Assembly: GCA_022826305.1 (NCBI GenBank)
Contig: JAJDVC010000258.1
Span: 1-34,694 of the forward strand
Source: Gammaproteobacteria bacterium
GTDB lineage: Bacteria > Pseudomonadota > Gammaproteobacteria > Arenicellales > Poriferihabitantaceae
Reading direction: 5' to 3'
DNA: 34,694 nucleotides
The translations under genes were made by a program, and so were the position numbers. The notes below the pieces were generated by a model. That model was not told the DNA's origin and made no database searches. It saw only the letters and a program-made list of their open reading frames with translations. This document shows positions 19,348-22,369 of the stretch, in pieces; position 1 is the first letter of the stretch, and every line of letters begins with the position of its first letter.

Positions 19348-20697
19348 TCAAGCCTGACGATGCCGCGGAATTCGTGACCCAGTCCACAAGCCTTCATAGC
19401 GTTTCTGTCCTTTCAGCCAGCCCCAGGTGGCTTCATCCATTCTTACATCCATGACAACTGATCCGGTATCGTCTACCTCCTCGTGAATCACCTCACACTT
19501 CCGAAACAGCCTGGAACGCAGCTCTCCCGCATGCAGAACAAGACTGATCCTGTACAGATGACTGTCTTTGCCCAGCATATGTCCAAGTGTGCTTCGCAGG
19601 TCATCCACACCCTCTCCGGTCAAGGCGGAAACCCATACACTGTCAGCATTGTTATCCTGTCGTTTCGGAATATTCCAGGCATGGCTGATGATATCAATCT
19701 TGTTGTAGACCTGAATTACCGGAATATCTCCCGCGCCAATCCCATCCAGCACCTGGCAGACCTGGTCCCGGGTCTGCTGAAAATCAATTGTCGATGCATC
19801 CATCACCAACAGCAGGCACGATGCATGGGTTACCTCTTCAAGCGTGGAATGAAATGCCGCAATCAGACTATGTGGCAGATCCCTGACGAATCCTACGGTA
19901 TCGGATAACACGACATCCCCGAATCCGGGCACATGAATACGACGCATGGTCGGATCAAGCGTTACGAACAAACGGTCTGCTACGGACACGTCTGCCCCCG
20001 TCAGTGCCCGGAACAAAGACGACTTGCCGGCATTGGTGTAACCAACCAGCGATACTGTAGGTATTGGTGCGCGCTGTCGTGCCCTTCTGCGCAATTGTCT
20101 CTGGGATTCGACCTGTTCCAGTCTCCTTGTCAGGGTCTTGATACGCTTTCCGATCATCCTGCGGTCTGTTTCGAGCTGGGATTCTCCGGGGCCCCTCAGT
20201 CCGACGCCGCCCTTCTGCCGCTCCAGATGGGTCCATCCCCGCACCAGGCGTGTGGACAAGTGCCTGAGTTGTGCAAGCTCGACCTGGAGTTTGCCTTCAC
20301 TTGTGGTTGCGCGCTGGGCAAAGATATCCAGTATCAGCCCTGAACGATCAAGAACGCGGCATCTGAGGATTCTTTCGATGTTCCGCTCCTGAACGGGGCT
20401 CACCTGGTGATCAAAGATCACCAGGTGAGCCCCGTGCTCCTCAACCAGCCGGGCCAGCTCCTCTGTTTTCCCCTTTCCCAGATAGGTAGCTGCAACCGGA
20501 CGAGCGCGAACAGATACCAGCCTGGCGCAGACTGCTACACCAGCTGAATCGGCCAGTTCAGCCAGTTCCGCAAGCGGGTCGCCGCTTGCCAGTGCCGTAT
20601 CGGCGACCTGACATGCCAGTACGGCCTTTTCCCGGGAGCGTGAATAGCGGGGTGGATGATTGATGGGGGAGAACAGAAACGGAAACCCGGTTAACAG
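19348..20697 (-). CDS. hflX: Ribosome-associated GTPase HflX (5' end inferred)
   Basis: A GTPase that splits stalled or heat-damaged ribosomes. Motifs in order: LDRSGLILDIFAQRA, VELAQLRHLSTRLVRGWTHLERQKGG, GLRGPGESQLETDRR, then the G domain with GYTNAGKSS (G1), DTVGFVRDLPH (G3) and NKIDI (G4). The conserved N-terminal domain continues upstream of the first usable start (GTG at 20421). It reads SREKAVLACQVADTALASGDPL... and PVAATYLGKGKTEELARLVEEHGAHLVIFDH, aligning with E. coli residues from about 6. No ATG, GTG or TTG occurs in this frame between 20421 and the TAG at 20713-20715. The end at 20697 marks a possible CTG start after TGAGTGG and is a guess. A perfect 43-nt palindrome lies within the gene at 20393-20435. 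It follows hfq, as is usual. Confidence 0.9.
   Translation of the reverse strand: MLTGFPFLFSPINHPPRYSRSREKAVLACQVADTALASGDPLAELAELADSAGVAVCARLVSVRARPVAATYLGKGKTEELARLVEEHGAHLVIFDHQVSPVQERNIERILRCRVLDRSGLILDIFAQRATTSEGKLQVELAQLRHLSTRLVRGWTHLERQKGGVGLRGPGESQLETDRRMIGKRIKTLTRRLEQVESQRQLRRRARQRAPIPTVSLVGYTNAGKSSLFRALTGADVSVADRLFVTLDPTMRRIHVPGFGDVVLSDTVGFVRDLPHSLIAAFHSTLEEVTHASCLLLVMDASTIDFQQTRDQVCQVLDGIGAGDIPVIQVYNKIDIISHAWNIPKRQDNNADSVWVSALTGEGVDDLRSTLGHMLGKDSHLYRISLVLHAGELRSRLFRKCEVIHEEVDDTGSVVMDVRMDEATWGWLKGQKRYEGLWTGSRIPRHRQA
20393..20435. repeat. Perfect 20-bp inverted repeat with 3-nt loop inside hflX
   Basis: Bases 20393-20412 are the exact reverse complement of 20416-20435, with AAA (TTT in the mRNA) as loop. 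The inner 12 bp are CACCTGGTGATC and GATCACCAGGTG. On the coding strand it spells the conserved stretch HGAHLVIFDHQVSPV, so the protein is kept intact while the DNA is fully self-complementary. The GTG at 20421 lies in its 5' arm in the mRNA. There is no T-run after it. Confidence 0.95.
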
Positions 20698-20738: not shown

Positions 20739-21005
20739 TCATTCGTGCCCCAGGGGCTGCCCTGGACCAAGGTGCTCACCGGAAGACAATCTTACCTCTC
20801 GGGAAGGGACAATGGTCGATATGGCATGCTTGTAGACCATCTGGCTAACGGTATTTCGAAGCAAGACGACAAACTGGTCGAATGATTCCACCTGTCCCTG
20901 CAACTTTATTCCATTAACCAGAAAGATGGATACCGGTACACGCTCTTTGCGCAGGGCATTTAAAAACGGTTCCTGCAATGCCGTTCCTTTACTTTGTGCC
21001 ATCAT
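20739..21005 (-). CDS. hfq: RNA chaperone Hfq
   Basis: A hexameric Sm-like protein that pairs small RNAs with mRNAs. The 88-residue protein has the canonical Sm1 and Sm2 motifs: [40 protein letters not shown], then [19 protein letters not shown]. The C-terminal tail is short and Gly/Pro-rich. Two successive ATGs open the gene (21005 and 21002). The AAGG seven nt before the first favours 21005. The usual upstream neighbour miaA is separated from it by a doeB-like gene. hflX follows downstream. Confidence 0.97.
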
Positions 21006-21373: not shown

Positions 21374-22369
21374 TCAACCTGCAACGACATTTGCCATGAC
21401 CGCCATGACATCACCCGACCTGATCAGCCCGGGATGATGTCTGCCGATCAGCAGGCCATCATACACGGAATGATACATGACAGGCTGAATTCCGGTCCGT
21501 TCGGTATTATGAATGCGTGCAAGCAGCTGACCGGAAACTACCGGGCTTCCCAGATCGACAAGGAATTCGAGCAGACCGGAATTCTCAGCTGTCAGAAAAC
21601 ACCTTTCCGATGGCATCTCCAGCGTGATGCCATCGCCTTCAGCAGGTTTCCAGTTCAGAATGCCCGCATGCACACAGAAATTTATGATGCCGGAACGGGC
21701 GATGCCGATCGAGCGGGCAGTTATCGTGCCGCCACCGCCCAGTTCCGTGGAAACAAATACCTTCCCCTGACTTTCGGCCTCGGTATCATACATTCCCGCT
21801 GAATCAAGCTCGCGCAACATGACGTTGTAAGGGGCGCCAAATGCACGCATCGCAGCTTCACACCGGGCCTGCTGCCCCTTGTCCGACAGGACATGCGCTG
21901 CTGAAAAGGGGACAAAATTGAGTGTCTTGCCTCCAGAATGGATATCCAGCACGAAATCAGACATGGGAATGAGTATCTTGCTGAAATAGTGCGCCATTTT
22001 CTCCGTCGCAGTGCCATCTGGACGACCTGGAAATACCCGGTTCATGTTTCCTTCATCAAGAGGCGATGTCCTTCTGCCGGCACAAAATGCCGGATAATTC
22101 ATCATCGGCACCATAATCAACCTGCCTGCCATGTCTTCAGGCTTGATCTCGTTGCACAGATCAAGCAATGCGGCCGGCCCCTCATACTCGTCTCCATGGT
22201 TGGCGCCCGTTACCAGAACCGTCGGACCCGAACCATTCTTTACAACTGTTACCGGCGCCATGATCGCTCCCCAGGCGGCCCGTTCGTCGGAGTGCGGAAG
22301 TTTCAGAAAACCGTGCTGAATTCCGGGCTTCTCGAAATCGACGGTCGCTACAACCGGACTTGTGCTCAT
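21374..22369 (-). CDS. doeB: N-alpha-acetyl-L-2,4-diaminobutyrate deacetylase, DoeB-like (succinylglutamate desuccinylase/aspartoacylase family)
   Basis: In ectoine catabolism DoeB removes the acetyl group from N-alpha-acetyl-diaminobutyrate. The 331-residue protein is a zinc amidohydrolase. GANHGDEYEG carries the His and Glu metal ligands, and VLDIHSGGKTLNFVPF carries the second His. NMNRVFPGRPDGTATEKMAHYF and MYDTEAESQGKVFVSTELGGGGT are strongly reminiscent of DoeB. The C-terminal part (VVSGQLLARIHNTERTG) is the usual beta-barrel lid. No other ectoine genes (doeA, doeC, doeD, ectABC) are visible in the window. The gene interrupts the common miaA-hfq pair. The family call is firm; the exact substrate is inferred and another N-acyl amino acid is possible. 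Confidence 0.8.
   Translation of the reverse strand: MSTSPVVATVDFEKPGIQHGFLKLPHSDERAAWGAIMAPVTVVKNGSGPTVLVTGANHGDEYEGPAALLDLCNEIKPEDMAGRLIMVPMMNYPAFCAGRRTSPLDEGNMNRVFPGRPDGTATEKMAHYFSKILIPMSDFVLDIHSGGKTLNFVPFSAAHVLSDKGQQARCEAAMRAFGAPYNVMLRELDSAGMYDTEAESQGKVFVSTELGGGGTITARSIGIARSGIINFCVHAGILNWKPAEGDGITLEMPSERCFLTAENSGLLEFLVDLGSPVVSGQLLARIHNTERTGIQPVMYHSVYDGLLIGRHHPGLIRSGDVMAVMANVVAG

Follow-up and report, generated by a model that had tools for sequence, protein, structure and literature searches.

Inverted repeats are perfected by a process known as quasipalindrome correction or sequence-directed mutagenesis, in which template switching acts on an imperfect repeat, and this process is established in Escherichia coli from reporters and natural hotspots (PMC6357072, PMC7202029). 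A perfect hairpin can arise by one template-switch event (PMC8794818), and in yeast template switching has been traced in 39 coding genes, with up to five adjacent residues altered together (PMC8604942). For prokaryotic coding DNA, the work of Ladoukakis and Eyre-Walker 2008, as relayed in PMC4060949, reports a small excess of short inverted repeats and attributes it to sequence-directed mutagenesis. Palindromes also lie within mitochondrial genes of Nematomorpha, where they are scattered and lineage-specific and have no clear function (PMC6649704), and within bacterial coding sequence in Rickettsia.

Here we describe a perfect inverted repeat with 20-bp arms and a 3-bp spacer in hflX, the gene for a ribosome-rescue GTPase, of a draft genome of the Poriferihabitantaceae, found in a 34.7-kb stretch of DNA, which we call the window. 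As in the E. coli thyA hotspot and the lacZ QP5/QP6 reporters (PMC7202029, PMC6357072), a short-spaced repeat appears to have been perfected inside a gene, and the hflX arms are comparable in length with the 18-bp arm of the lacZ reporter. However, the hflX event is deduced across species rather than observed. The homogenization of arms in Saccharomyces cerevisiae (PMC8604942) likewise replaced several adjacent amino acids in coding genes, although in yeast the events were traced between closely related strains, whereas hflX is compared with relatives at ~70% identity or less. The locus resembles the repeats of Ladoukakis and Eyre-Walker in its excess and proposed cause, but those repeats, in the account available through PMC4060949, measure 6–9 bp. 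In both hflX and the Nematomorpha genes, the two arms encode conserved protein. The mitochondrial palindromes, however, are abundant and reach 284 bp, whereas hflX has one repeat, on a bacterial chromosome, in what Mikhailov et al. (PMC6649704) call phase 2, the second codon positions of the two arms pairing with each other. We regard hflX as a clean case, found in nature, of a conserved bacterial gene with a long perfect palindrome, and the hairpin is best filed as a fresh example of an already known mutational process. One copying event can alter several codons of a core protein together.

A perfect inverted repeat in the hflX coding sequence

The repeat occupies positions 20393–20435 in a 20+3+20 arrangement. 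An earlier note on this DNA had described exact 20-bp arms around a 3-nt loop within the hflX coding sequence, and both points are borne out, the arms being 100% complementary and the minus-strand frame open and matched by HflX models. The first base pair beyond the arms is mismatched. No other short-loop inverted repeat in the window comes near it in length, and no other arm pair there is of such quality. The minus strand reads CAC GGG GCT CAC CTG GTG ATC TTT GAT CAC CAG GTG AGC CCC GTT, corresponding to HGAHLVIFDHQVSPV. The positions of the arms, the loop, and the neighboring genes are listed in Table 1.

Table 1 Features of the hflX region in the window
Feature	Position	Strand	Description
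hflX CDS	19348..20676	-	442 aa; proposed CTG start 20676-20674; stop 19350-19348
Arm 1	20393..20412		downstream arm on minus (coding) strand; encodes DHQVSP and GT of next Val
Loop, 3 nt	20413..20415		AAA plus / TTT minus; Phe codon
Arm 2	20416..20435		upstream arm on minus strand; AC of His codon, then GAHLVI
GTG	20419..20421	-	internal Val codon in upstream arm; start candidate of the earlier note
hfq (presumed)	20739..21005	-	upstream of hflX; hfq-hflX order conserved with E. coli; named from gene order
Succinylglutamate desuccinylase/aspartoacylase-like gene	21374-22369	-	between miaA and hfq, which adjoin in E. coli

Two HflX equivalog models were matched above their cut-offs, NF008280 at 480 bits (cut-off 441) and TIGR03156 at 464 bits (cut-off 216.75). 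E. coli HflX (5ady) aligns to the product with E = 4e-119, gapless across the hairpin site. The gene is intact and present in a single copy, its reading frame and length are kept, and there are zero inserted residues at the hairpin. The hairpin itself likewise occurs once in the source genome, a draft of 3.03 Mb in 263 contigs that is 90.8% complete. These observations bear on the idea of an inserted mobile palindromic element. Coding genes of Rickettsia are known to contain embedded palindromes, as cited in PMC6649704, but the Rickettsia elements are inserted, mobile, and present in many copies, whereas in hflX nothing has been inserted relative to orthologues, no residue has been added relative to E. 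coli HflX, the sequence of either arm is homologous to HflX, and the repeat is present once. Because the hairpin is neither an insertion nor multicopy, an element of the Rickettsia type was rejected, and we give it a probability close to nil.

The translation start of hflX is probably not ATG. Orthologues mostly begin with TTG in a TTG-TTT context (41 among the readable cases), as does the E. coli K-12 gene, which starts with TTG, and CTG-TTT or CTG-TTC stands at the matching start position in the family members L008, L009, L012, L014, L017, and L020. Since the window has TTT CTG TTC where orthologues begin with TTG or CTG, the CTG in Table 1 is likely the start. The GTG in the upstream arm had been taken in the earlier note as the first usable start, covered by the hairpin. 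This proves wrong because the conserved N-terminal domain (KAVLACQVA...GKGKTEELA) extends ~85 codons further upstream, and both the frame and the orthologues make the GTG an internal codon. In the Poriferihabitantaceae, the CTG start is apparently conserved within TTT CTG TT(T/C), whereas most gammaproteobacterial orthologues have TTG there. A conserved non-AUG start of hflX would escape automatic gene callers here.

Chance, conservation, and possible function

Given the protein, the hairpin is well beyond chance. For the given amino acids and the codon usage of this genome, the probability of all 20 pairs is 10^-5.8 (~1.7x10^-6), and with amino acids drawn from an orthologue profile it falls to 10^-9.5 (102 orthologues) or 10^-9.1 (the 29 closer ones). 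Moreover, arms of at least 18 bp appeared in 0 of 200 synonymous shuffles of ~0.74 Mb of coding DNA sampled from the source genome. The peptide nevertheless helps by several orders of magnitude, and for that reason the phrase "essentially impossible by chance" in the earlier note was right in direction and too strong in wording. In orthologues, the hairpin register pairs 7.54 of 20 positions on average, compared with 5.14 for the mean codon centre (rank 5 of 260), because the codons for V-I-F-(D/N)-H are partly self-complementary. A coincidence between a peptide of complementary codons and ordinary codon usage would draw on exactly this: the peptide allows a palindrome, the centre ranks high, and the more lenient of the above probabilities applies once the amino acids are given. 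We consider such a coincidence very unlikely, as the shuffles gave no arm of this length and the amino acids are atypical exactly at the positions where pairing demands them.

Comparison with relatives shows how isolated the pairing is. In 102 distinct hflX orthologues, a set that includes those with FNH as well as FDH, 3–12 of the 20 positions pair in the hairpin register (mean 7.5), compared with 20/20 in the window gene. Relatives in the same genus form 5–8 of the 20 pairs with inner pairing weak or absent, and the nearest hflX DNA found is ~70% identical at the locus. Runs of 5–7 contiguous inner pairs occur in 6/102 orthologues, none of them close relatives (e.g., L090, GTGATCTTTGATCAC), and the rest have 0–3. 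Among the 24 genomes of the family that were searched, no other carries the hairpin within 3 mismatches. As judged from these alignments, the hairpin is not a conserved element and appears confined to one lineage. Alignment of hflX from relatives had been proposed in the earlier note, with residues encoded there in the absence of pairing named as the outcome that would count against a functional hairpin, and the pairing is indeed not retained. The functional readings that it offered (ribosome stalling, an RNA switch, or a protein-binding site) are left unsupported, as the 102 orthologues, those of the same genus included, lack the pairing.

Signs of a cis-acting element were looked for in several ways. 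Neither conserved nor covarying pairing, as a structured RNA element would have, was found across the 102 orthologues and the 24 family genomes. No intrinsic terminator is predicted at the hairpin, and its flanks contain no U-tract or T-run on either strand. In Rfam, zero families exceeded the gathering threshold at the hairpin; a known RNA family was rejected because the only matches were subthreshold ones to eukaryotic microRNAs, such as any perfect hairpin yields. On the other hand, a 123-nt segment of the hflX mRNA folds at -58.8 kcal/mol (z = -4.65 versus shuffles), which would suit an RNA or DNA element kept by selection to tune the transcription or translation of hflX or the stability of its mRNA. 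Since stalled ribosomes are what HflX acts on, feedback through a structured stretch of codons is conceivable. Selection for such an element is quite unlikely, however: the pairing is kept in 0/102 orthologues from the genus, the family, and beyond, a terminator tail and an above-threshold Rfam family are both lacking, and the other coding hairpins of the genus sit in unrelated genes. An effect of the predicted fold on hflX expression is possible, although nothing points to selection for that effect.

Template switching as the proposed origin

We propose that the hairpin is probably the product of a replication template switch that perfected a near-palindrome, the outcome being tolerated by the protein. 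This origin was absent from the causes listed in the earlier note and is the most likely one. The seed would have been the HflX motif V-I-F-(D/N)-H, whose common codons GTG ATC TTT GAT CAC form a short near-palindrome. At this motif the growing strand would fold back, or jump to the sister strand, so that one arm templates the other. A single event could then swap several codons and leave two 20-bp arms exactly complementary about the Phe codon, with gene length and frame retained and changes limited to tolerated residues. Templating by the downstream arm would have introduced the His at F-4 (counted from the loop Phe); templating by the upstream arm would have introduced the Gln and Val at F+3 and F+4.

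The residues encoded by the arms agree with this proposal. Among 103 HflX sequences, the window gene included, His at F-4 is unique to the window, and Gln at F+3 and Val at F+4 occur in 4/103 each. The codon at F-4 is paired with that at F+4 (CAC/GTG), and the one at F+3 with the codon of the common Leu at F-3 (CAG/CTG). The family-atypical residues are thus carried by paired codons, such that base complementarity predicts the oddities of the protein. They lie, however, in both arms, with His in the upstream arm and Gln and Val in the downstream arm, implying that at least one of them predated the event. The likelihood of being the native arm is 10^-6.0 to 10^-6.2 for the downstream arm and 10^-7.0 to 10^-7.3 for the upstream arm, which are ~6- to 20-fold apart, and the downstream arm is therefore slightly favored as the native, templating arm on this profile-based comparison. 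For a native arm and its copy, the cost is ~10^-6 to 10^-7 times the event rate, compared with 10^-9.1 to 10^-9.5 for two independent arms.

Taken as a whole, the repeat fits template switching because of its putative motif seed, its single centre, the unchanged gene length, the atypical paired residues, and its occurrence in a single lineage. Its arms match perfectly around a short spacer, more so than chance would allow for this protein, and it is perfected in this lineage only, as is expected of such events. The excess of coding hairpins in the genus and the undetected ExoI domain, both described below, also speak for this origin. Whereas the exact repeat, its restriction to one lineage, the atypical residues at paired codons, and the excess in the genus are observed, we infer that one event made the hairpin and, more tentatively, that the downstream arm served as the template. 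Against template switching stand the weak or absent inner pairing in relatives of the same genus, the presence of ExoVII (XseA), and the draft state of the genome. In addition, the closest DNA is ~70% identical, too distant for the ancestor or a cluster of mutations to be reconstructed, which leaves the choice of the copied arm tentative. The hairpin is best read as a replication scar rather than a regulatory element.

Coding hairpins and nucleases in the genus

Perfect hairpins in coding DNA were surveyed in sampled contigs of the source genome (~1 Mb) and two further members of the genus, with 5' ends trimmed and codon shuffles as the control. The genus has 22 hairpins with arms of at least 11 bp, compared with 7.8 in the shuffles, and 11 versus 2.15 at arms of at least 12, a roughly five-fold excess. 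At longer arms, the counts are 6 versus 0.65 (at least 13) and 4 versus 0.21 (at least 14). In E. coli K-12, sampled as 17 x 50 kb with 0.63 Mb of coding DNA analysed, the corresponding counts are 1 versus 3.3, 1 versus 0.79, 0 versus 0.17, and 0 versus 0.02. The split of 22 to 1 at arms of at least 11 has a probability of ~0.003 under an equal ratio, a post hoc figure that sets drafts against one closed genome.

The same contrast between the draft genomes of the genus, which show the excess, and the closed E. coli genome, which does not, could be expected if hairpins arose during sequencing, library preparation, or assembly, with self-primed hairpin read ends rewriting one arm in the draft consensus. 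The fragmented and incomplete assembly described above would favor such an error. However, the hflX site is internal to a 34.7-kb contig, the HflX frame and length are intact with no insertion or duplication, and the residues encoded by either arm remain compatible with HflX. Nor is there a clear excess (1 versus 0.37 expected) at other gammaproteobacterial loci from drafts and isolates. The fold-back artefact raised in the earlier note is disfavored in its usual inserted or duplicated form by the gapless alignment to E. coli HflX, and what is left of it, local rewriting of one arm, is in our judgment unlikely.

In the genus there is no detectable exonuclease I (ExoI) and no clear SbcCD, the enzymes that would be expected to hold such events in check. 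The ExoI C-terminal family PF08411 was undetected in 7/7 genus genomes (G000–G006, all drafts); it was found in 5/25 genomes searched, 3 of those 5 in the same family. SbcC and SbcD gave weak matches only in the genus, below the cut-off. Going by the titles of Laranjo 2017 (cited in PMC6357072) and Eykelenboom 2008 (cited in PMC7999016), respectively, template switching in E. coli is aborted by ExoI, and a palindrome is a site of DNA breakage by SbcCD. It is conceivable, though doubtful, that a genus without ExoI and a clear SbcCD makes and keeps perfect coding palindromes at an unusual rate, a suggestion that comes from a correlation within one clade of draft genomes. If true, coding hairpins could be read from a genome as a sign that surveillance of hairpins and template switches is missing, and they would repeatedly give rise to multicodon changes in proteins. 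Should the excess in the genus follow the absence of ExoI and SbcCD, lineages that have these nucleases and lineages that do not could serve as a natural test of what E. coli mutants show.

Several individual palindromes were seen in the course of the survey. The source genome has a second perfect coding palindrome, 16+2+16, at L141:5066-5099 in the sense frame of a ybeY-like gene. Genome G003 contains a 17+0+17 palindrome (L196:16815-16848) in a nicotinate phosphoribosyltransferase-like gene, and genome G001 contains a 14+0+14 palindrome (L222:11507-11534) in a glutathione-synthase-like gene; these three gene names are our assumptions from sequence motifs. The short contigs L122, L129, L136, L217, and L225 consist entirely or nearly entirely of N, being withheld or masked sequence. 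A pair of adjoining perfect hairpins (22+9+22 and 13+8+13) at L161:2876-2962 is probably intergenic and lies just upstream of a TRAP transporter permease-like gene.
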